Source of the DNA: a virus
IMG/VR virus record: IMGVR_UViG_3300042879_000409
Location: 1-31,574 of that record
Reading direction: 5' to 3' (one strand)
DNA: 31,574 nucleotides
Part shown: positions 1 to 31,574 of the stretch, piece after piece
Numbering within the stretch: the first letter of the stretch is position 1
Layout: the number at the start of each line of letters is the position of its first letter
Made by a program: the position numbers and the translations under genes
The notes under the pieces: generated by a model
Seen by the model: the letters and a program-made list of their open reading frames with translations, nothing else
What the model was told of the DNA's origin: nothing
The model's database searches: none

Positions 1-88
1 GGCGCCATGGTGCCACCTGAGGAAAAACGGTTGGGGGGCGCGGTTGTCGTTGCCTGCGCGTTTGTGGAGAGTCTGGAGAGGCTCTGGG
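1..88. other. Left edge, no gene seen
   Basis: Contains a near-palindrome GGCGCCATGGTGCC at 1-14 and a direct repeat of CAACCG around a C-run (minus strand). An ATG at 8-6 with AGGTGG upstream could open a gene beyond the window, but only two codons are visible. Confidence 0.3.
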
Positions 89-406
89 CTAACTCTTCCC
101 GTGCGGGTGAGGTCGGTTCCCTCTGCTGCTGTTACAGGATCGGTGAGCGGGCAGGAGCGGGGAGTCGGGATCGCCCGCGATGACGTGGTCGGCTGTCCAT
201 GGGTCGTCGTGCTTGGCGGTCTTACCGCACAGCCAGCAGACTTCGGCGTTCAGGCATACCTGTCGTGCGCGTCTCTTGTAGTCGCCTGTGTAGTGCGGTC
301 GTTTCGGTTTCTGATGTGTCTGGTTGTAGATCCGTTGGCAGCGGTCGCATCGACTACCTATTGTGGTCAGGTTGCCACAGTTCAGGCATGGCTTACTTAT
401 TGGCAT
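89..406 (-). CDS. HNH endonuclease
   Basis: 105 residues. An N-terminal zinc knuckle (C7-x2-C10, C20-x2-C23) is followed by the HNH core: CWLCGKTA, WTADHVIAGDPDSPLL with D73-H74, then AHRSCNSSRGNR with N92. HNH proteins of this size usually sit beside the small terminase in HK97-type phages and aid packaging by nicking or cleaving DNA. Here it ends the minus-strand gene series. Confidence 0.9.
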   Translation of the reverse strand: MPISKPCLNCGNLTTIGSRCDRCQRIYNQTHQKPKRPHYTGDYKRRARQVCLNAEVCWLCGKTAKHDDPWTADHVIAGDPDSPLLPAHRSCNSSRGNRPHPHGKS

Positions 407-578
407 CGTTATCCGTTTCGGTAAGAGTTCTCCACTTGGCGTTACTCAATCCACGTATCCGACCGTCGCGTTCTACCCATACCCATGTCGGTGCGTCAGG
501 GTCACAGTTGCAGCCGTTGAGGTGGCGAACGTCGTGATCGACGAACGCTTGGCAGGTCAGGCATTGGGCGACGATCAT
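393..578 (-). CDS. Small zinc-binding protein after the glycosyltransferase
   Basis: 61 residues (MIVAQCLTCQAF). C6-x2-C9, H15, H19 and C23-x-C25 could bind one zinc. WVWVERDGRIRGL follows as a likely beta hairpin. It starts in the ATGA overlap with the glycosyltransferase, so it belongs to the same unit. Function unknown; a partner for DNA binding is possible. Confidence 0.72.
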   Translation of the reverse strand: MIVAQCLTCQAFVDHDVRHLNGCNCDPDAPTWVWVERDGRIRGLSNAKWRTLTETDNDANK

Positions 579-1396
579 CGGCGACCCATCAAGTGCTTCG
601 GCTTGTTGCGTTGCCGTATCGCGATGTGTGATCCGTAGGGATGCCCGGGCTTGTCGCGGTATGCGACGATGTCGGGGAAGTTGTCCACAAGGTACTTGGC
701 ATCCGCCATCTTCTGTTCCATCCGTTCGTTCAGGGAGCCGTATCCGCCTTCCGAGTATCGGCGACAGTCGGGCAGTACCCATTGGTTCACGACGACCACC
801 CCGAAGGTGCGAATGTTGAGAGCCGTGAAGCCGTAGTCGTCAATCGTTTGGACGACGGGATCAAACCGTAGGTGCGTCTTGCGGATGACGAGGGCGCGAC
901 CATCGGCGAGGACGTTAAACGTCCAATGCTTCGCTCGGAACAGCGGATTGTCGATCGCGGCGAATCCGCCGAGGTTAGAGCCAGAAGCTTCACACTTCTT
1001 AGCCAATTGTTCAGCACGGAGGACGAAGCGTTCCATGGTGATCGGATTCTTAAACCGTTCGGCGTAATGCCCTTGGTTCTTGGTTGTGATCGGGATTGAT
1101 GGTTCGGTCACCCGGTCGTAGTTCCGTAGTTCGGTCACGTCCTTCAGGTCATCGACGAGGAACAGGGCCCATTCCCCATCCGCCATCATGTCTATGGCTG
1201 TGTTCCGTTGGATACCGAGACCGCGAGGATTGTTGGTGACCAGAAGCCGGCTCTCCTTGACTGTTCCATGTTTCAGGAACTGTTCCTTCGCCTCTTCGGT
1301 GTGAATCAGAACCGTATGGTCAATATCTTCCGCCTCCAGCATCAGCGAGGTGGTCATGGAGTCGTAGCGGTTGTATCCGAAGACGAAGACTCTCAT
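575..1396 (-). CDS. TET-associated-type glycosyltransferase
   Basis: 273 residues from MRVFVFGYNRYDS; the open frame before this ATG is a shadow. A GT-A-like fold is suggested by the N-terminal strand, GLGIQRNTAIDMM (59-71) and the metal-binding D82-D83 (LFLVDDLKDVTE). This resembles the TET-associated glycosyltransferase group. It is expected to add a sugar to 5-hydroxymethylcytosine. Sugar and linkage cannot be told from sequence. Overlaps both neighbours by 4 nt, so it is translated with the dioxygenase. Confidence 0.75.
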   Translation of the reverse strand: MRVFVFGYNRYDSMTTSLMLEAEDIDHTVLIHTEEAKEQFLKHGTVKESRLLVTNNPRGLGIQRNTAIDMMADGEWALFLVDDLKDVTELRNYDRVTEPSIPITTKNQGHYAERFKNPITMERFVLRAEQLAKKCEASGSNLGGFAAIDNPLFRAKHWTFNVLADGRALVIRKTHLRFDPVVQTIDDYGFTALNIRTFGVVVVNQWVLPDCRRYSEGGYGSLNERMEQKMADAKYLVDNFPDIVAYRDKPGHPYGSHIAIRQRNKPKHLMGRR

Positions 1397-2220
1397 TGGG
1401 CGTACTCGTCGTGGATCGTGGTGGCAGCATTGCTGGCACGTCGCGGTTCGTCGGCTCGGCAGCCACAGTCGGCGATCAGTCGTTTCACATACCAGACCAG
1501 CGTGAAGCGGTAGGCATCCTTCGTGCGCATGATCAACGGAGTCACGCCATGCCACGTCAGCGCACCGTCAAAGATCGTGAGCGAGCCGTTCGGGATACCG
1601 AGCGTCAGGTCATAGTTCGGCATATCAAGAGCACCGCCATCGACACCGAACCGCACAGACAGCATCATTGACCATGTTCCGTGGATGTTGCCAGAGTCCT
1701 TGTGGTACGGGAGCGCGCTCTTGTCGTTGATGATTCCCGATGTGTATGGCGTGCCGGCTATCAACCAGTCAGGGTGGATGTTTGCTTGCACGATCTCCTT
1801 GTGCGCTTGCGCTTGCGCTGGCAAGAGATTCTGGAACGCTGTCCATGCCTGAACGCTGATCGGCTCCAAGATTGACCGCATCTCCGCGCTCTGTGCCCAA
1901 AGCCTTCCGTCACGGCAGGCGTAACGCTTCCGAGTCGGATTCGGGGGAACCGTGCCGAAGTATTCGTTCGCAGCCTTGATGCCCGACATACGGGAACGGT
2001 TGTTGTTCTTACCCTGAAACTTCACGGTGAAGCGCAAGAACCGAGACAGCGAGCGCAACAATTCTTCGTCGCATCCCCAGTCGGTCGTCTGAATCAAGAA
2101 CGGTTCGCCATCCTTCAGACCGAGAACGTCCTCATCGACGATGTGACTGCTGGGTATGTTCGGTGCGCACTCACGCACCTGCGGTTCCCACTCTTTATGC
2201 GTCAGATCCAAGTTGCGCAT
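1393..2220 (-). CDS. TET/JBP-type 2-oxoglutarate/Fe(II) dioxygenase
   Basis: 275 residues. The double-stranded beta-helix core shows Fe ligands H173-x-D175 (PYHKDSGN) and H224 (LTWHGVTPL), with R238 (YRFTLVWY) placed to bind 2-oxoglutarate. Between them GGALDMPNYDLTLGIPNGSL and IFDGAL match the TET/JBP pattern. Known relatives in phages oxidise 5-methylcytosine to 5-hydroxymethylcytosine and beyond. Here it follows a cytosine methyltransferase and precedes a glycosyltransferase, so it likely works on 5mC in phage DNA. Its stop overlaps the next start as ATGA. Confidence 0.88.
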   Translation of the reverse strand: MRNLDLTHKEWEPQVRECAPNIPSSHIVDEDVLGLKDGEPFLIQTTDWGCDEELLRSLSRFLRFTVKFQGKNNNRSRMSGIKAANEYFGTVPPNPTRKRYACRDGRLWAQSAEMRSILEPISVQAWTAFQNLLPAQAQAHKEIVQANIHPDWLIAGTPYTSGIINDKSALPYHKDSGNIHGTWSMMLSVRFGVDGGALDMPNYDLTLGIPNGSLTIFDGALTWHGVTPLIMRTKDAYRFTLVWYVKRLIADCGCRADEPRRASNAATTIHDEYAQ

Positions 2221-2830
2221 ACGCTTCTTCCACGAGACGGATCAAGGTAACGGAGTTGTTCTCTTCGCCGGCTTCCTCGCGCAGTTCTTTCAGTTTGCGG
2301 GAAACGTCCTCGTATTCGGCGACCGTCATCGGGAACAGCAGGGTGCGAGTGTCCTTCGCGAAGTAGTCATCCATGCCTTCGCCCCATGTCTTGCCTGCTT
2401 CGGCGTTGCCCATCGTTCCTTCCAGACGGTAGAGCAGGTCATCAAGGTCGTCGCCAGAGAACAGCGATCCGTCCAAGCCTGCTTCTGTCGCTGCGAGTTC
2501 CTTCAGCAGATCGGCAAGAGCGCGGTCGTCGTACATCGCGAGGTCGTTCGCGCGGTTGTCCACCAACAGGATCTTCATTGCTTGTTCGTTGTCGCAATCG
2601 ACGTAGGTAACAGCGACCTGTTTCCACCCGAGGCTCTTCGCTGCCATGAACGTATGGTTGCCTGCGAGAACGTAGCCGGTGCTTCGCTGAACAACGATCG
2701 GGCGATACTGTCCGTGCGACTTCAGGGATTCGCTGATCGCGCCAACGTCGCCTTGACGAACGTTTCGCGGATGCGTGTGGAACTGGTCAATGGGCTGAGC
2801 CAGCGACGCGATCTCTTCTCTGATGTTCAT
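2195..2830 (-). CDS. ParB/Srx-fold protein
   Basis: 211 residues. ParB N-terminal pattern: HPRNVRQGD (20-28), AISESLKSHGQYRPIVV, VLAGNHTFMAAKSLGW with GNH at 57-59, and DNRANDLAMYDD at 91-102. The family binds DNA and CTP or acts as nuclease or ATPase in different forms; phages often place it beside DNA methyltransferases and modification enzymes. The C-terminal part is acidic with a helical region. It may guide modification to particular sites (inference). Confidence 0.88.
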   Translation of the reverse strand: MNIREEIASLAQPIDQFHTHPRNVRQGDVGAISESLKSHGQYRPIVVQRSTGYVLAGNHTFMAAKSLGWKQVAVTYVDCDNEQAMKILLVDNRANDLAMYDDRALADLLKELAATEAGLDGSLFSGDDLDDLLYRLEGTMGNAEAGKTWGEGMDDYFAKDTRTLLFPMTVAEYEDVSRKLKELREEAGEENNSVTLIRLVEEAYAQLGSDA

Positions 2831-2842
2831 TGTCCCTCCGTG

Positions 2843-3004
2843 CTATTCGGTCTCGCCATCCACCATAGCGCGTTCCATCTTCACGATCTTGGTGCTGTGC
2901 TTGTCGGGATTCTGGCAGGTCGGTGCTGCGCTTGCCCGAACGAATAAGACCAGTCGTCGATCACACTCGGGACAGAACCAGCGTTCTTTCACCGAGGGTC
3001 GCAT
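2843..3004 (-). CDS. Small zinc-binding protein in the modification cassette
   Basis: 53 residues from MRPSVKERWFC; overlaps the methyltransferase end by 16 nt. C11-x2-C14 and C30-x5-H36 suggest a zinc ribbon; the remainder is basic then acidic. It is placed between methyltransferase and ParB-like genes. Function unknown. Confidence 0.7.
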   Translation of the reverse strand: MRPSVKERWFCPECDRRLVLFVRASAAPTCQNPDKHSTKIVKMERAMVDGETE

Positions 3005-4191
3005 GAGACTTCCATAATACGTTCCCCGACCCATTGGGCTACGGGTGAGGCGACTCCGTTACCGCATTGACGGTATCGCTGCGTATCCGTCTGTCCAGCC
3101 GTCCAGTCGTCTGGCCACCCCATGAGCCGTTCGCACTCAACTGGCGTAAGGCGACGAACCGCCAATCCCGTCAACTCTTCCGACTCGTAGGCAACGGAAG
3201 GCGACTGCTGCGATGCCTTGATCGGTGGTGCGAGATCCGCATACACATGGGCATTGCTACCGAACTGTGTATCAAATGCGACCAGCGCGGTTGCGCGTGT
3301 TCCGCGAACGTCAAACGCATTGAGCGTTGGCGCAAGCTTCCCCTCAACCCATGTCTCGTTGTCGTACTTGTTCTGTGCTCGCTTGGACTTTGTGAACGTT
3401 GCCACCGCATGAGGACCTCTTGCCACCAGCGAAGGAACAACAGGATGTTCCGTGATGACCGGGTCAAACCTTGCGTTCTCGCCTTGGTTAAACGCAGCGC
3501 GGTCAATCAGGATCGGCTTGCCACCATCTTCTCCAATGCTTCCCGCAGCCTTGTCGGTAGACGCTTGCCCCTGCGGTTCGCTCTGCGCAGGATTCCCTCG
3601 CAAGCCTTCGGCGACAGAAAGTAACGGCTCTGGACAACGCTCGGCGGTTGCAGGATCAAAGACAGAGACGAGGAACACTCTTCTACGTCGCTGGGGGACT
3701 CCGAAGTATTGTGCATCCAAGACGCGCCACTCCGAGAAACTCGCCCCTGATTCATCCAGTTCATGGAGTACCTCCCCGAAGTCGGAACCTCTGTTGGACG
3801 ATAAGGCTCCTGGGACGTTCTCCCAAATAGAGATTCTTGGATACCTTCCATCACTTAGCCTCCTCAGTTCGTTGATGATTCTTATTCCTTCGTAGAACAA
3901 TCCTGAACGTTCTCCGCTCAAGCCGGCACGTCTGCCAGCAACCGACAGATCTTGGCATGGGCTTCCCCATGCGACCACATCGACGACTGGCGCATGACGC
4001 AGGATGTGTTCTCCCGTGAGTGTGCTTATGTCTCCCCATCGGGGGACGTTCGGCCAATGCCGTTCTAGAACCTTTGTTGCGTGCTTATCCCATTCGCATT
4101 GGAACACGGTTTCCATGCCTGCGCGTTCTAGACCTAGATCAAATCCGCCGACTCCCGAGAAGAGGGAGAGAACCTTCGGCTTCTCAGTCAT
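2989..4191 (-). CDS. DNA (cytosine-5) methyltransferase
   Basis: 400 residues. All core motifs are in order: I (LFSGVGGFDLG, 10-20), IV with catalytic C79 (GSPCQDLS), VI (WENVPGA, 123-129), VIII (QRRRRVFLV, 167-175), then a variable target region (about 180-345), IX (RLTPVECERLMGWP) and X (YRQCGNGVASPV). It transfers methyl from AdoMet to cytosine C5. In the target region segments around 235-300 are shared in style with other phage methyltransferases. Standing beside a TET-type dioxygenase, it probably makes the substrate for further modification rather than serving restriction; no restriction gene is present. Confidence 0.95.
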   Translation of the reverse strand: MTEKPKVLSLFSGVGGFDLGLERAGMETVFQCEWDKHATKVLERHWPNVPRWGDISTLTGEHILRHAPVVDVVAWGSPCQDLSVAGRRAGLSGERSGLFYEGIRIINELRRLSDGRYPRISIWENVPGALSSNRGSDFGEVLHELDESGASFSEWRVLDAQYFGVPQRRRRVFLVSVFDPATAERCPEPLLSVAEGLRGNPAQSEPQGQASTDKAAGSIGEDGGKPILIDRAAFNQGENARFDPVITEHPVVPSLVARGPHAVATFTKSKRAQNKYDNETWVEGKLAPTLNAFDVRGTRATALVAFDTQFGSNAHVYADLAPPIKASQQSPSVAYESEELTGLAVRRLTPVECERLMGWPDDWTAGQTDTQRYRQCGNGVASPVAQWVGERIMEVSCDPR

Positions 4192-4270
4192 CCATGAACC
4201 TCCGCAGCACCAGCCCCAAGGCGATGCCGACGAACGCGACCCATCCCACGATCATTGCCCCCTCAATCAT
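4184..4270 (-). CDS. Tiny membrane peptide before the methyltransferase
   Basis: A 28-residue ORF (MIEGAMIVGWVAFVGIALGL onward, ending LVLRRFMDD) forming one membrane helix. It overlaps the upstream stop by 8 nt and the methyltransferase start by 8 nt, filling the gap exactly. An internal ATG at codon 6 with GAGGGGGCA upstream is an alternative start. Confidence 0.5.
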   Translation of the reverse strand: MIEGAMIVGWVAFVGIALGLVLRRFMDD

Positions 4271-4466
4271 CCCAAATGTCCTCCAACTCCTTGATTCGCT
4301 GCATAATGTCCAGCATTAGGTGATTCGTGAGAACGATACCCCAATGCATGGGGATAGGTTCTCCGATCAACTGTTCCCACGCGATGACCGCTTCCACCGA
4401 GCGAATCGCCTCATCGACGTTCTTCGGAGCGGTATCCCAAGACGGAAACGAGTGTTCCCTCGTCAC
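4263..4466 (-). CDS. Unknown 67-residue acidic protein
   Basis: Starts at a GTG overlapping the previous stop as GTGA. Pattern NVDEAIRSVEAVIAWEQLIG then MHWGIVLTNHLMLDIMQRI is helical, ending in an acidic patch (ELEDIWDD). No motif is recognised. Confidence 0.65.
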   Translation of the reverse strand: MTREHSFPSWDTAPKNVDEAIRSVEAVIAWEQLIGEPIPMHWGIVLTNHLMLDIMQRIKELEDIWDD

Positions 4467-4693
4467 AACTCCACGCCTTGTTGTATGTGTAGTTGCAGCC
4501 GATCGACGCGAGCGAGTAGGTCATGGGTCAAGTGCTCATATTCCTTGATCATTGCTTCCTTCTCAGCGCAAGCGTTCTCCAAGAGAACAGCGGTGCTGCG
4601 CGCAGCATCTCTCTCTTCTCGCACCCGGTCAAGGGAGTTCTGAAGATCGGCGACTCGCGCCTGCAACTCAATGATTTCTGCCGTGTGATCCAT
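4463..4693 (-). CDS. Coiled-coil protein, unknown
   Basis: 76 residues from MDHTAEIIELQ; the GGGAGAAGCAAG ribosome site favours this ATG over one 21 nt upstream. Nearly the whole protein shows a heptad pattern (ELQARVADLQNSLDRVREER, later LLARVDRLQLHI), so a dimeric coiled coil is likely. No function is recognised. Confidence 0.75.
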   Translation of the reverse strand: MDHTAEIIELQARVADLQNSLDRVREERDAARSTAVLLENACAEKEAMIKEYEHLTHDLLARVDRLQLHIQQGVEL

Positions 4694-4823
4694 CTTGCTT
4701 CTCCCTCTCCGCAATCTCCCTGCGGAACTGTGCGATCGTGAAGAACAGAACTTCCTCGTCTGCCTTCCCGACCCAAACCTTCTCTAGAAACCGTAGTGCA
4801 TTCTTTAAGTCTTGTGTTCTCAT
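4668..4823 (-). CDS. Small helical protein, unknown
   Basis: A 51-residue ORF (MRTQDLKNALRFLEKVWVGK) with AGGGAGAGCC before the ATG. It is amphipathic and charged, without Cys. It overlaps the next gene by 26 nt, whose ribosome site it contains. Confidence 0.7.
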   Translation of the reverse strand: MRTQDLKNALRFLEKVWVGKADEEVLFFTIAQFRREIAEREKQDGSHGRNH

Positions 4824-4842
4824 GGCTCTCCCTATGGGTAAT

Positions 4843-4875
4843 CCCCCGCACCGCCAGAGGGCGACGGTGCAGGGG
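4843..4875 (-). terminator. Stem-loop after DUF932 gene
   Basis: CCCCTGCACCG pairs with CGGTGCGGGGG (one mismatch in 11 bp, 11-nt loop), starting 9 nt past the stop. No U-run follows, so attenuation or message stabilisation is as likely as full termination. Confidence 0.5.
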
Positions 4876-4884
4876 ATCGTGACG

Positions 4885-5892
4885 TTACTTGCAGATAGTC
4901 AGCAACTTGCCGTATGCCTCCCTGTCGCTGAGTTCGGTGACTCCCGTGAGCGTATCCATCATGTTGCGCTCCACCCGCATCGTGCCACCGCGAGTAGGGC
5001 GGAAGTGATGACGGTAGGTATTGACCGCTTGGATAACGCCGAAGCCTGTGTTCTTCCACGGTGCGACCCGAGGATCTGATGACCACAGCGTGAGATAGTT
5101 CACTCTGTCCCGATCGACCTTCGTTTCTGCGTGCTTGGATCCGTTCACAGGACGGGGAACGATCACGTCAAGGAAACGGTTGTAATCCTCGTCCGAGACC
5201 TTCAGTTTGAGCATCTGCTCAATCTCCTTGGTGAATGACTCGCCGAGGTTGAAGACGACCTGTAGGGCCGATCGTGCTTCGCCGAGGATCATCTGCGAAT
5301 TCGCGGTATGGCGTACTCGGTAATCCTGACCTTCCTCTGCCAATGCCATCGCCCGGGTATTGTCGCAGACAACTACGGTCACCGTCCTCTTGTATGTGGT
5401 CGCGATGGAGCCATTGAATGAGGTGGTCGCGAGAAGGTGAGGGCGGAACTCAACGTCCGAAACCTTCACGTTCTCTGGCATCTCAATCTGTACCCAAGCA
5501 ACCGCTCCACCCTTCAGCAGACCTGCCGATCCGATCGCGAGATCCGAGTCGTCGATGACCTGCGAAACCTTCTCTAGCAGCGCGTCTTCGTACTGGTGCG
5601 GTTCGTAAGACGACGACGGAACGCCGAGCACCTCGTAAGTGTCGTCGCGAACGATCGCCTTCTTGTTCGGAACCTCGCTCAGTTCGCCGTTGGGCAACTG
5701 GATGTAGGTAGGCATGGTGATCGCCTTCCATGAGAACAGGCGACGACGAACATCATCAATCGGGATTGCCCCGGCGTAATGATTCGTTTCTCCGCCTTGC
5801 TCGCTTGCGCGATAATGCCAAGCTTCTCCTCGCTTCTCCGTGAACCCAACCAGCACGTTGCGGTTGAGCCATTCCATAGTTTCCGTGGACAT
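4885..5892 (-). CDS. DUF932 phage/plasmid-like protein
   Basis: 335 residues. The N-terminal GEAWHYRASEQGGETNHY and VRRRLFSWKAI, the middle YEVLGVPSSSYEPHQYEDAL, and VFNLGESFTKEIEQML with a C-terminal GFGVIQAVNTYRHHF match the DUF932 family found in phages and plasmids of many bacteria. Its role is not established; links to DNA replication or repair have been suggested. A hairpin lies just past the stop. Confidence 0.88.
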   Translation of the reverse strand: MSTETMEWLNRNVLVGFTEKRGEAWHYRASEQGGETNHYAGAIPIDDVRRRLFSWKAITMPTYIQLPNGELSEVPNKKAIVRDDTYEVLGVPSSSYEPHQYEDALLEKVSQVIDDSDLAIGSAGLLKGGAVAWVQIEMPENVKVSDVEFRPHLLATTSFNGSIATTYKRTVTVVVCDNTRAMALAEEGQDYRVRHTANSQMILGEARSALQVVFNLGESFTKEIEQMLKLKVSDEDYNRFLDVIVPRPVNGSKHAETKVDRDRVNYLTLWSSDPRVAPWKNTGFGVIQAVNTYRHHFRPTRGGTMRVERNMMDTLTGVTELSDREAYGKLLTICK

Positions 5893-26350: not shown

Positions 26351-26956
26351 TCAGTCCGGCTGCTTATGACGTGCGATCGCCAACTGATTCTTACGAAGCA
26401 GCAGGTTACTCGCACTCTTTACGATAGCCTCATCGGACTTCTTGCGCAACTCCGCAACGGTTTCCTCGTACGCAGGGAACGTCACGATGGAAACATCGTA
26501 CAACTGGACTTCCTTCAGTTCGCGAACCGAACGATCCTTGTTCCACGAATCCTTGATGGTGCGGAACGCGAAACTCATCTGGGTCATATCACCACGACGC
26601 ATAGCCGACAGCACGCGCTGGGCATCAGGATTCGTCGGGTCAAGGTCGGCTTCCACGCGGAGACCGCGCTCGTCCTCCATCATCTTCAGCGTTCCCGACT
26701 TGGAGCGCGCCAGAGGGATGCCTTCGTGGTCGATGAGCAACCGCACATCGGCACCATCGTTCAGGGTCTTGGTGAAGGCTCCGCGACGCACGTATTCTGT
26801 CCACGGTAACGGTTCCGAGGGGGAATCGAAGACGGCTGCGTAACCGATAAGTTTCGTGGAATCCTCCATCGCACGAACTTCCAGATTGCTGTACGCAACG
26901 GAACGACGCTCATCCTTCGGGACGGTTACCCACGCAATAGTTGCCGTATCGGTCAT
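26351..26956 (-). CDS. Candidate internally initiated prohead protease (nested)
   Basis: Within the fusion gene, codon 330 is an ATG (MTDTATIAW) preceded by AAGGATAACACG, an AAGGA ribosome site at normal distance. Initiation here would give a 201-residue protein containing the whole serine protease domain with H77 and S128 of the short form, about the size of stand-alone HK97-type prohead proteases. Whether both forms are made is inference. Confidence 0.5.
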   Translation of the reverse strand: MTDTATIAWVTVPKDERRSVAYSNLEVRAMEDSTKLIGYAAVFDSPSEPLPWTEYVRRGAFTKTLNDGADVRLLIDHEGIPLARSKSGTLKMMEDERGLRVEADLDPTNPDAQRVLSAMRRGDMTQMSFAFRTIKDSWNKDRSVRELKEVQLYDVSIVTFPAYEETVAELRKKSDEAIVKSASNLLLRKNQLAIARHKQPD

Positions 26957-27943
26957 CGTGTTATCCTTGTGTGCGCTGCGCTTATCATAGCCGATTCGTT
27001 TGCGCTCTTCGTCCATCTGACGCACGATGCCCTCCGCATAGTTCTGTGCGCGACGCGCCGACTCCCTCGTACTGCCACCACCCCACAGCAGCATCGCGAC
27101 CAGACCGGGCGTAATCTCGTCACCATCAACAGCATCCAGATCGACGATGTGACGGGCGATCCACGGGCCGATCTTCCTCCACTTCGCTTCGCTCAGGATC
27201 TCACCGTTCGCCATCTTGCGAGCATCTTCCACGGTCTGCGGTCGTAGACCTTCGCCAGATTCGCCGGCTTCGTGAAGGTCCAAACCGCGACGAGCCGATT
27301 CCGCCATGAAGTCAGGGGCAACCATCTTGATCGCCCGAGACTCGTATTCCATGCCGTCTTCCATCGGCTCTTCCATCTCGTCAGCCATCTCTTCGGCTAC
27401 GAACTCGTCAGGCGAATACACATCCACCCCGAGGGACTCCACCGCTGCACGGTTCATCTCCGAGTTATCCACGAAGGCATCAATCTCGTAGCCTTCGTCC
27501 AGCAACATACGGATAACGTTTTGCTTATACGTTGCGACCGCTTCAGGTTCCGTCGATCCTTCGTTCATAATCAAACGGACATACGCAATACCAGCGTCAG
27601 AAAGTTGCTGCACGGTCTCTTCACGTGAAGCTTCTTCCCGTCCAGTCAGCAACACGACGGGATATTCGCTGGCATTCACGGCAGCGATCACGTCTTCCAT
27701 CGGTCGCGAACCTCCAGCCAGCAGCGTTCCGTCAATATCGACGACGAGGATCTCTTCCTCCTGACGAACCTCGCGACTGGTTTCACCACCCGGCTCAATG
27801 CCTTCTGCGATAGAGACGGCAACCATCTGGTCAATGGCTGCCTGCTTCGTGGTATGGCATCCGAGGACTTCGCCATCGGCTTTCTCCACAGCCCAGCCAG
27901 AACAGTTCGGGTTCTGATCGCTAATGAAGTAAGGCATGGTCAA
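26351..27943 (-). CDS. HAD-like phosphatase fused to HK97-type prohead protease
   Basis: A 530-residue fusion. Residues 1-56 form a conserved module found before actinophage proteases (NCSGWAV, GCHTT). Residues 64-180 look like a HAD hydrolase: D69-I-D71-G-T, LLTGR at 98-102, possible Lys 140, and FVDN with D159. An acidic linker follows (181-200), then a helical module (about 205-315) with KWRKIGPWIARHI and LLWGGGSTRESAR. The C-terminal half (about 345-500) is a serine prohead protease: DHEG with H406, MSFAF with S457, LYDVSIVTFPAY at the end. The protease matures the capsid by cleaving the scaffold part. The HAD part would hydrolyse a phosphate, substrate unknown. An internal start at codon 330 may yield the protease alone. 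Confidence 0.88.
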   Translation of the reverse strand: MTMPYFISDQNPNCSGWAVEKADGEVLGCHTTKQAAIDQMVAVSIAEGIEPGGETSREVRQEEEILVVDIDGTLLAGGSRPMEDVIAAVNASEYPVVLLTGREEASREETVQQLSDAGIAYVRLIMNEGSTEPEAVATYKQNVIRMLLDEGYEIDAFVDNSEMNRAAVESLGVDVYSPDEFVAEEMADEMEEPMEDGMEYESRAIKMVAPDFMAESARRGLDLHEAGESGEGLRPQTVEDARKMANGEILSEAKWRKIGPWIARHIVDLDAVDGDEITPGLVAMLLWGGGSTRESARRAQNYAEGIVRQMDEERKRIGYDKRSAHKDNTMTDTATIAWVTVPKDERRSVAYSNLEVRAMEDSTKLIGYAAVFDSPSEPLPWTEYVRRGAFTKTLNDGADVRLLIDHEGIPLARSKSGTLKMMEDERGLRVEADLDPTNPDAQRVLSAMRRGDMTQMSFAFRTIKDSWNKDRSVRELKEVQLYDVSIVTFPAYEETVAELRKKSDEAIVKSASNLLLRKNQLAIARHKQPD

Positions 27944-29547: not shown

Positions 29548-31053
29548 TCAGTCCCATACGTTCACCACACTAGGAGAACTGTCTGGCTCTTGCCTACGAG
29601 TAGCGCGATCTAGTGCCATCACCAGTGCGATGCAAGCGTCGATCTTCCGTTTGCTCTTGCCCTTGGACAGTCGCCAACCGTTGTCGGTCATGCGTTGCGC
29701 TGCGCTGAGCACCTGATCGGTGAAGGTCGGTGATGCGTCGTGCGCGACCTTTCCTTGCACGATCAACTCGTAAGCCTGACCGCAGGCTGGGATCATTCGC
29801 GCGCCGGTCTGCGGAAACTCCACCATCGGCAGCCCATCGTCGGCGAGAACCTCCGCGGAACGCTGGAAGTAGGCAGGGTCAAACGCGAACTCTCGTACCT
29901 CGTAGGCACGGTGCAGGGTGCGCAGATAGGTCTCTATCTCTGCCACGTCAATGCCTTCGTCTTTCGGAAACCAGATCTGTGCTCTCACCACCACGGTTTC
30001 GCCTTGCGGTTGGGCGATTACCACCGCGATGCTGTCGTGCTTCAGGGCCATGTCGATCCCGACCCAGACGGGCAAGGACTCGTCCAGTTCCCGTTCCGAC
30101 ACGCAACGCTCCCATGTGCCAACGGGTAGCCACGATTCCTGCGTTCGTACCCATTGGTTCAGTCGCCATCGACGGAAGGCGGATTCGGTCGTCTGCTTAG
30201 TTGCGGTCGCCATGTCCTCGGGGTCCATGAGACCTTCGGGCAGGTTCGGATTGGCTCGCGCCCATTCCTTGCGGTCGTTGATATCGCAGTCTGGCTTTCC
30301 TTCCCACCACCAGAAGCCGAACGATTCGTCATCAACCTCGCCGGCTGCGCAGGACTTTCCGTAGTCGTAGAGACCGCCAGCCAGAGAGTCGCGGTCGTAG
30401 CCAGCGGTCGTAATGGAGATGATCTGTGGTTCCAGTCGCGCACCCGAACCGAGCGTCATCTGGTCGTACAGTTCCCCGTTGGCTTGGTTCCACAACTCGT
30501 CAAAGAGAACGGTCGATGGGTTGAGACCTGCCTGAGACCTGAACTCTGACGACAGCACACGGAACACCGAGCCGAAGGTCGGGATCTCCAGTGCGTCGCG
30601 GTAGACCTTCGTGATCTCGGACAGCATCGGCGAGTTCTGAACCTGCTGCTTGGCTTCGTTGAAGATGATGCGCGCCTGCTGGCGGTCGCCAGCCACCGCA
30701 TACACTTCCGCACCCGGCTCGCCAGCGATCATGGAATACACAGCGATAGCCGACCCCATCAGGGACTTGCCGTTCTTGCGTGGTAGTCCGATCAGCGCGC
30801 GTCGATACCGCAGCCGTCCCTCGGCGTTCCGTTCGTACAGGCAGCGCAGCAGCCATTTCTGCCAGTCGGTGAATACAAGCGGTTCGCCGGCACGGAATCC
30901 TTTGAGGACACGGAAATGAGCCTCCGCGAACTGGATGATCTCATCACCATCGGTGGTCGGATACCTACGTTCCGTGAAGAACGAAGGCGACCACTCAGCC
31001 CGAGGTGCTGTTCCTCTTGGCTTGGATCCTGGCGCGGATTTCGTGGAACTCAT
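29548..31053 (-). CDS. terL: Terminase large subunit (ATPase/nuclease)
   Basis: DNA-packaging motor that translocates DNA into the prohead and cuts it. The 501 residues carry a Walker A motif GLPRKNGKS at 89-97, Walker B TVLFDE at 181-186, a coupling region ISITTAGY near 212-219, and a C-terminal RNase H-like nuclease with acidic residues at D334 (VGIDMA), D392 (FDPAY) and D472 (KIDAC). Length and motif order fit a complete HK97-type (Terminase_1-like) enzyme. It is followed at once by a small membrane-protein gene and the portal. Confidence 0.97.
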   Translation of the reverse strand: MSSTKSAPGSKPRGTAPRAEWSPSFFTERRYPTTDGDEIIQFAEAHFRVLKGFRAGEPLVFTDWQKWLLRCLYERNAEGRLRYRRALIGLPRKNGKSLMGSAIAVYSMIAGEPGAEVYAVAGDRQQARIIFNEAKQQVQNSPMLSEITKVYRDALEIPTFGSVFRVLSSEFRSQAGLNPSTVLFDELWNQANGELYDQMTLGSGARLEPQIISITTAGYDRDSLAGGLYDYGKSCAAGEVDDESFGFWWWEGKPDCDINDRKEWARANPNLPEGLMDPEDMATATKQTTESAFRRWRLNQWVRTQESWLPVGTWERCVSERELDESLPVWVGIDMALKHDSIAVVIAQPQGETVVVRAQIWFPKDEGIDVAEIETYLRTLHRAYEVREFAFDPAYFQRSAEVLADDGLPMVEFPQTGARMIPACGQAYELIVQGKVAHDASPTFTDQVLSAAQRMTDNGWRLSKGKSKRKIDACIALVMALDRATRRQEPDSSPSVVNVWD

Positions 31054-31471
31054 GGTGCTTGGTTTCTCCTAGTCCTAGGTTGGCACGATCCGTAGGGGAG
31101 AAACCGATCTGACCGAGCAGCGAAGAAATCTGCTTGTCCAACTCGCGCAATCCCCTTCGCTCGCGCCAAGCGTTTGGGTTCAGCATAACCTGATTACGCA
31201 ACTGCACGCGCTCGTCAATCGCCTCGCAAGCCATGAGCACGATCTCGGCATCCATGTTTGGCTTCAGCCATGCCGCGCCCGCTGTCCACACGGCATCCCA
31301 CATCCTGCGTCCGAACGCAGTCGCGATCGGTCGATGCGGTTCGGGGATTTCCCTGAACGGAAGAACATGAACTTCTGCGACCGGCGGAGGAAGCTTGCGC
31401 TTTCCAGGATTGCCGATTCTGCGTTTCTGTTCCACAGGCTTCGGACGTTTGCCCGAACCTTTACCTCCCAC
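30995..31471 (-). CDS. terS: Terminase small subunit (P27-like)
   Basis: Likely recognises phage DNA and recruits the large subunit for headful packaging. The 158-residue protein starts with a basic Gly/Lys-rich stretch (MGGKGSGKRPKP) and continues with a conserved Pro-rich segment and a mostly helical body, as in P27-family small terminases. The start is GTG, with GGAG about 7 nt upstream. The 3' end overlaps the large terminase by 59 nt, a usual arrangement. Its place as first gene of the head module supports the call more than any single motif does. Confidence 0.85.
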   Translation of the reverse strand: MGGKGSGKRPKPVEQKRRIGNPGKRKLPPPVAEVHVLPFREIPEPHRPIATAFGRRMWDAVWTAGAAWLKPNMDAEIVLMACEAIDERVQLRNQVMLNPNAWRERRGLRELDKQISSLLGQIGFSPTDRANLGLGETKHHEFHEIRARIQAKRNSTSG

Positions 31472-31574
31472 GTCGATCTCCGTTCACAACACGCACCAAC
31501 ATACAGCAAGAGCGGTAACCGCGACGACTCACGAAACCAGAAAAGTGGTTTCACCGCGGGTGCCTACCTGAGCG
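31472..31574. promoter_or_regulatory. Right edge, region before small terminase
   Basis: About 100 nt without a convincing gene. It holds two inverted repeats: GCGGTAACCGC (31512-31522) and GAAACCA-GAAAAG-TGGTTTC (31533-31552). These could serve as operator, terminator or packaging recognition sites for the adjacent terminase genes. No clear promoter was found. Confidence 0.4.

Follow-up and report, generated by a model that had tools for sequence, protein, structure and literature searches.

A ParB–TET/JBP dioxygenase–glycosyltransferase cassette beside a C5 methyltransferase gene in phage DNA, with thymine as its most likely target

The locus described here raises the question of which base is modified when genes for a TET/JBP dioxygenase and a glycosyltransferase (GT) stand next to a gene for a C5-cytosine DNA methyltransferase, and whether the methyltransferase takes part in the same pathway. 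A preliminary description of the locus proposed that the methyltransferase supplies 5-methylcytosine (5mC), which is then hydroxylated and glycosylated. The window, i.e. the whole stretch of phage DNA analysed (31,574 nucleotides), covers positions 1–31,574 of the IMG/VR virus record IMGVR_UViG_3300042879_000409.

Gene layout of the locus

The methyltransferase gene and all genes of the cassette are located on the minus strand of the window. The C5 methyltransferase (2989–4191, 400 aa) is followed by a small Cys-rich, zinc-ribbon-like protein (2843–3034, 63 aa), a ParB/Srx-fold domain protein (2195–2830, 211 aa; PF02195, 6e-7; PHROG 723, 1.6e-40), the TET/JBP 2-oxoglutarate/Fe(II) dioxygenase (1393–2220, 275 aa) and a GT-A-fold, TAGT-like GT (575–1396, 273 aa). 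The methyltransferase, ParB-like protein, dioxygenase and GT which had been noticed previously were all found to be present. Their arrangement as one overlapping unit was confirmed for the methyltransferase and zinc-ribbon genes (46-nt overlap), the ParB and dioxygenase genes (26 nt) and the dioxygenase stop and GT start (4 nt, ATGA), but the zinc-ribbon and ParB genes are separated by a 12-nt gap. Position 393, given as the boundary of the unit, belongs to a small Cys-rich ORF (393–578, about 61 aa) which comes after the GT gene and whose ATG overlaps the GT stop. A longer ORF at 393–782 had no Pfam match. A megablast search of the first 12 kb of the window against isolate phages gave no match. 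The gene set is not a product of chance, since homologues of the same genes, including the zinc-ribbon-like one, are present in a collinear related phage (G084).

The next gene (89–406) encodes an HNH endonuclease (PHROG 338, 8.2e-7). HNH homologues were also observed in relatives (L016/L017, L063 and L085), where they lie before or after the cassette, by the terminase genes.

Families and folds of the three enzymes

The dioxygenase as a single protein matched PF12851 (Tet_JBP) with E = 2.2e-5 and 24.2 bits, against a curated cut-off of 34.9 bits, and all 35 members of the dioxygenase alignment matched this family (best 1.4e-12). The iron ligands H173, D175 and H224 (HxD...H) and the 2-oxoglutarate Arg R238, which had already been picked out in the window protein, are invariant in the alignments. 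Neither the dioxygenase nor the GT had a real match among PDB sequences in phmmer, and a single-protein scan of IMG/VR with the dioxygenase gave no match; a profile search weakly recovered TET2, NgTet1 and CcTet. A wider alignment (A1) could not serve as a search query because its members diverge too much. When the AlphaFold2 model of the dioxygenase (pLDDT 90.5) was compared with the PDB by Foldseek, the top 26 matches were all TET2, NgTet1, CcTet or CMD1 (E 1.8e-11 to 6.4e-9), followed by AlkB/FTO. The modelled fold is that of TET/JBP rather than of other 2OG oxygenases, and the structural search, which the preliminary description had suggested as a check, groups the enzyme with TET and not with protein or small-molecule hydroxylases. 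The active-site strand reads WSMMLS in the window protein versus WSAMPV in the main family, a difference which could mean a different substrate. Residue N178 stands at what we take to be the position of NgTet1 D234 and TET2 N1387. Asn at this position is invariant across the ParB-linked dioxygenase family; it was considered as a mark of specificity and rejected as deciding nothing, because Asn is also present in TET2.

The GT matched PF20691 (TAGT) with E = 0.006 (long ORF) or 0.0044 (trimmed ORF), and its 17.4 bits are under the curated cut-off of 27.5, so we refer to it as TAGT-like and do not file it as a TAGT member. PF20691 was matched by 5 of 12 members of the GT family (best 1e-4). A tblastn search of isolate phages with the GT as query gave no match. 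The DD motif reported before (D82-D83, DD/DxD) proved invariant in the family alignment. The AlphaFold2 model (pLDDT 90.0) has a GT-A fold; it matched viral models named TET-Associated Glycosyltransferase in BFVD (TM-score 0.66–0.69) and GT-A enzymes in the PDB. The structural neighbours of the two enzymes support the assignment of the dioxygenase and GT to a phage DNA-hypermodification cassette in the preliminary description.

The methyltransferase motifs, previously described as complete, are so: FSGVGGF, GSPCQ, ENV, QRRRR and CGNG are in register with M.HhaI, and PF00145 was matched with 4.9e-57. The CmoX carboxymethyltransferases are marked by an SPPC motif and an Arg replacing HhaI Asn304 (PMC12783734). 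This assignment was rejected because the window protein has GSPCQ and an Asn at the N304 position; judged by these residues, it is a methyltransferase of the SAM type.

Genomic partners and the target base

The dioxygenase belongs to a large phage family whose members have ParB as a near-invariant upstream partner. Of 71 non-redundant relatives, 62 carry ParB immediately before the dioxygenase. Six of the other nine are truncated, MED4-117 carries a ParB_N gene two genes upstream, and only the distant Nonlabens and Cr30 phages are then left without ParB. We propose from this pairing that the ParB-like protein may be a DNA-targeting or activating factor for the dioxygenase. Downstream of the dioxygenase, a TAGT-type GT was found in 39 of the 71 relatives and ADDT in 15, never both (0/71), with neither nearby in the remaining 17; at least nine changes of the downstream enzyme occurred on the tree. 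ADDT, 'Amino acid:DNA transferase', is related to aGPT-Pplase and belongs to thymidine-hypermodification chemistry (PMC11955845). Across the family, a constant ParB–TET/JBP front end is combined with interchangeable finishers, for a sugar or an amino acid. A P-loop kinase gene near the cassettes was also considered as a thymidine marker and rejected because it adjoins TerL and is annotated as the terminase small subunit in some phages.

The methyltransferase showed no such constancy. Of about 107 records with a dioxygenase relative, 4 also carry a C5-methyltransferase (PF00145); the 15 isolate phage genomes with such a relative all lack it. The IMG/VR records are mostly fragments, so absences there are weak and the isolate genomes form the strong part of this comparison. 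In the reciprocal test, 79 of the 80 records with the closest methyltransferase relatives were without TET/JBP and one had it. The front end thus appears to work without a phage source of 5mC, and the earlier proposal of the methyltransferase as substrate supplier was not borne out. Nor was cytosine as the target base: the missing association in both directions, the constant ParB and the alternative ADDT make thymine the better-supported target. Thymine is most likely the substrate, as suggested by the absence of the methyltransferase and the presence of ADDT, and the product is most likely a glycosylated 5-hydroxymethyl pyrimidine, a base-J-like glycosyl-5-hydroxymethyluracil (5hmU) being favoured. 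No biochemistry of the ParB-linked dioxygenase family was found in the literature searched.

The best reading, to which we assign a probability of roughly 0.6, builds on the observed genes, their families, the TET/JBP fold and the family-wide gene associations. The functional unit would be a trio of the ParB-like protein, the dioxygenase and the TAGT-like GT. Once the phage has replicated its DNA, the dioxygenase would hydroxylate a pyrimidine in it at the 5-methyl group, most likely converting thymine to 5hmU, and the GT-A enzyme would transfer a sugar from an NDP-sugar onto that hydroxyl, so that a glycosylated 5hmU resembling base J results. The near-obligatory partner, the ParB-like protein, probably attaches to DNA and chooses the sites or loads them, and the modified DNA may be shielded from host nucleases. 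The neighbouring methyltransferase probably protects other sites independently.

Several other explanations have to be weighed against this reading. The cytosine route, in which the methyltransferase makes 5mC, the dioxygenase converts it to 5hmC and the GT adds the sugar, would make the adjacency functional in the window phage. In its favour, the methyltransferase gene is directly upstream, on the same strand and nearly contiguous with the cassette, and phage TETs that oxidise 5mC and have methyltransferases and glycosyltransferases as partners are established (Burke 2021, cited in PMC12730594). Moreover, both closest phages with enough sequence, the window and G084, hold a C5-methyltransferase (orthologues with 60% identity in the MAFFT alignment, 48% by blastp), so that a change to 5mC within this small clade is conceivable. 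However, the orthologue in G084 is 6.3 kb from the cassette in a different gene context, and its target-recognition region differs from that of the window enzyme while the cassette genes are kept. The close relatives L016 and L017 keep ParB, TET and GT with no methyltransferase within an upstream flank of about 650 nt, and none was found in deeper members of the window's supported clade, i.e. L107 (a 156-kb record) and L021 (56 kb, like L018). Together with the missing genomic association, this makes the cytosine route doubtful, and the methyltransferase is probably an independent neighbour gene adjacent to the cassette. A more elaborate scheme, which we regard as rather speculative, is that ParB directs the hydroxylase and a divergent GT to chosen thymines to give site-specific base-J-like DNA while the adjoining methyltransferase adds 5mC, as two layers in one operon, or else that the cassette switched from thymine to 5mC after the methyltransferase was gained.

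It is improbable that the dioxygenase modifies thymine and the GT acts elsewhere, capping another acceptor or leaving plain 5hmU as the final product. In sequence, the GT resembles TAGT no more than distantly, and the relatives with neither GT nor ADDT nearby suggest that hydroxylation alone may sometimes suffice; but the ATGA overlap with the dioxygenase gene, the order dioxygenase–GT kept in L016, L098, L099, L100, L103 and L107 and the structural matches to TAGT speak against this reading. The least credible reading is a non-DNA target (RNA, tRNA or a surface glycan). The name 'queuine tRNA-ribosyltransferase', carried by dioxygenase relatives in RefSeq and in PHROG 6059, would fit it, but the TET/JBP fold, the constant pairing with ParB and the exchange with ADDT indicate that this database name misleads for the family.

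Comparison with known systems

Cassettes of this kind were already predicted in 2013, and the window adds another case. Thymine rather than cytosine is the base to examine first, the family layout offers a direct way to test whether ParB chooses or loads the sites, and the cassette could yield enzymes for writing glycosylated 5hmU at DNA sites. The enzyme kinds in the window are the same as in the phage cytosine hypermodification by TET, C5-methyltransferase and GT, for which a protective role was proposed (Burke et al. 2021); in contrast to that system, the methyltransferase does not co-occur with the TET family of the window. Rhodococcus phage Tonitrus, Gordonia phage LittleMunchkin and Microbacterium phage MO526 share the ParB–TET/JBP front end, but their thymidine-hypermodification cassettes finish with ADDT, whereas that of the window finishes with a GT. 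The actinophages Acadian, Serendipitous, Lilmac1015 and Altadena carry ParB–TET/JBP–TAGT (plus PIG-L) cassettes, Acadian with the same ParB–TET–GT–deacetylase layout as Serendipitous. As in the window, the ParB-like gene precedes TET/JBP, in some cases separated from it by one small gene, and a TAGT-type GT follows. The window differs in its adjacent C5-methyltransferase, which is missing from the actinophage genomes, Acadian included, in having no PIG-L deacetylase, in its divergent GT subfamily and in a dioxygenase only about 30–32% identical. For Acadian, GlcNAc-5hmU was predicted (Iyer 2013, as cited in PMC4111573). Synthesis of kinetoplastid base J by JBP1/2 and the J glucosyltransferase relies on different accessory proteins, but the likeness proposed here would lie in the same two steps, the hydroxylation of thymine within DNA and its subsequent glycosylation.

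Organization of the cassette and its enzymes

The window, a virus record of 31,574 bases from IMG/VR, carries five intact and almost abutting genes on the minus strand, which encode a C5 methyltransferase (2989-4191), a zinc-ribbon-like protein (2843-3034), a ParB-like protein (2195-2830), a TET/JBP dioxygenase (1393-2220) and a glycosyltransferase (575-1396). They overlap by 46, 26 and 4 nt, with a single gap of 12 nt. ORF and profile evidence confirmed the cassette genes named in the preliminary description as real and intact, and alignments showed that the residues claimed for the enzymes are present and invariant among the relatives.

The predicted model of the dioxygenase (pLDDT 90.5, pTM 0.89) matched CMD1, TET2, CcTet and NgTet1 in its first 26 PDB hits, followed by AlkB/FTO. 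This comparison of model with PDB, which the preliminary description had proposed as its own refutation test, came out for TET/JBP. Such a model-based fold match cannot discriminate between 5mC and thymine as the substrate. The glycosyltransferase model (pLDDT 90.0) showed a GT-A fold; its PDB matches (TarP, chondroitin polymerase and GalNAc-T2) were weak, and its matches to viral models were strong, several of them bearing the name TET-associated glycosyltransferase (TAGT). The sequence scores under the TAGT cut-off. The enzyme is TAGT-like and belongs to a divergent subfamily also found at the related loci L016, L098, L099, L100, L103, L059, L063 and L107.

The methyltransferase is alignable to M.HhaI. 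CmoX carboxymethyltransferases are marked by the SPPC motif and Arg at the HhaI N304 position (PMC12783734). Since the window enzyme has Asn at this position and GSPCQ in place of SPPC, the CmoX type was ruled out and the enzyme is an ordinary SAM methyltransferase.

Elsewhere in the window, the prohead protease gene (26351-27943, minus strand) encodes Peptidase_S78 (residues 353-505) and an N-terminal HAD acid-phosphatase-like domain (PF03767, 85-158, E 7.6e-9), which is an unusual fusion.

Distribution of the methyltransferase gene

The profile of C5 methyltransferases, PF00145, found no match in the 15 isolate phage genomes having a dioxygenase relative, and control genomes gave a normal signal. 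Among all of the approximately 107 dioxygenase-relative records, four were positive for such phage-encoded genes (G035, G036, G082 and G084), none of them with the gene adjoining the dioxygenase. Conversely, among the 80 IMG/VR records whose methyltransferases are closest to that of the window, G084 alone contained TET/JBP, and a ParB-like gene lay within 1 kb of the methyltransferase in 1/80. Many records are fragments and single absences are of little weight; what counts is the result for isolates with complete genomes and the agreement of the two search directions. The methyltransferase is outside the ParB-TET/JBP association.

The window dioxygenase forms a clade (SH-aLRT 99) with L098, L099, L016, L107 and L018. 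The genome G084, from which L099 originates, is collinear with the window across almost its entire length and carries ParB, dioxygenase and glycosyltransferase genes at the same place (69, 52 and 64% identity, respectively). Its methyltransferase orthologue is located 6.3 kb upstream of the cassette, between genes which are direct neighbours in the window. The two methyltransferases are alike in their catalytic parts but differ in the target-recognition region, which, together with the differing map position, suggests a mobile gene with changing specificity. Cytosine as the modified base is still a live alternative, as the window and G084, the two phages of the innermost clade with enough sequence to judge, do carry the methyltransferase. 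This reading is countered by the position of the gene in G084 and by L107 (a 156-kb record) and L021 (56 kb, from the group of L018), in which no C5 methyltransferase was found; on these grounds the methyltransferase is probably a mobile companion gene and not an obligatory step of the pathway.

L107 (IMGVR_UViG_3300027848_000009; 155,887 bases) represents a far larger phage with the same ParB-TET-glycosyltransferase trio, which suggests transfer between unlike phages. The HNH gene at one end of the window (1-406) and the terminase genes at the other (30995-31554) adjoin in G084 (1-1162). On this basis the window is possibly a circularly permuted genome that is close to complete.

Partners of the dioxygenase in related phages

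The relatives comprised 91 isolate-phage records (E<=1e-3) and the best 80 of 260 IMG/VR records, supplemented with records found via the glycosyltransferase. A ParB-like gene lies directly upstream of the dioxygenase in 62 of the 71 non-redundant relatives; six others end before this position and three distant ones scored as lacking it, although one of these, cyanophage MED4-117, has a ParB_N gene two genes upstream. Downstream, a TAGT-type glycosyltransferase was found in 39 and an amino acid:DNA transferase (ADDT) in 15 of the 71, never both, and this state changed at least nine times on the tree.

In MED4-117 (3383-5504), the gene matching ParB_N is annotated 'DNA methylase', and an FkbM-type methyltransferase, possibly another enzyme capping a hydroxymethyl base, is encoded between it and the TET/JBP gene. 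A gene immediately preceding the large terminase gene (L014, 3088-3651; L115, 3022-3588) encodes a P-loop nucleotide kinase (PF18751) named 'adenylate kinase' in phage Serendipitous; its positional counterpart in phage Acadian is named 'terminase small subunit'. The TET/JBP proteins of loci L005, L013 and L115 and other mycobacteriophage gp2 are named 'queuine tRNA-ribosyltransferase' in RefSeq and PHROG 6059, probably a misannotation, since sequence relationship and the fold of their window relative are those of TET/JBP.

Proposed pathway and known systems

The ParB-like protein, whose domain is frequent alongside other phage base-modifying enzymes (PMC12783734), may bind DNA and position the dioxygenase. 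The latter would hydroxylate thymine in DNA at its methyl group, and the glycosyltransferase would attach a sugar cap to the resulting hydroxymethyl. Cleavage sites in such DNA would be hidden from host nucleases, an expectation drawn from known phage hypermodifications. The methyltransferase would add 5mC independently. The preliminary description proposed a cassette converting cytosine through methyl and hydroxymethyl to a sugar-bearing base; its observation is sound and the general idea of DNA hypermodification stands, but the base and the first step are probably wrong.

ADDT and aGPT-Pplase are reportedly thymidine-hypermodification enzymes, according to Lee et al. (cited in PMC11955845). 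Phage Tonitrus, one of the ParB/TET relatives of the dioxygenase, possibly has a five-gene thymidine hypermodification system including ParB and a TET-like protein (PMC11955845). For Acadian, another relative, PMC4111573 attributes a prediction of GlcNAc-5hmU to Iyer et al. 2013. Acadian shares the ParB-TET-glycosyltransferase-deacetylase layout of its sister phage Serendipitous, on which the TAGT and PIG-L families were read.
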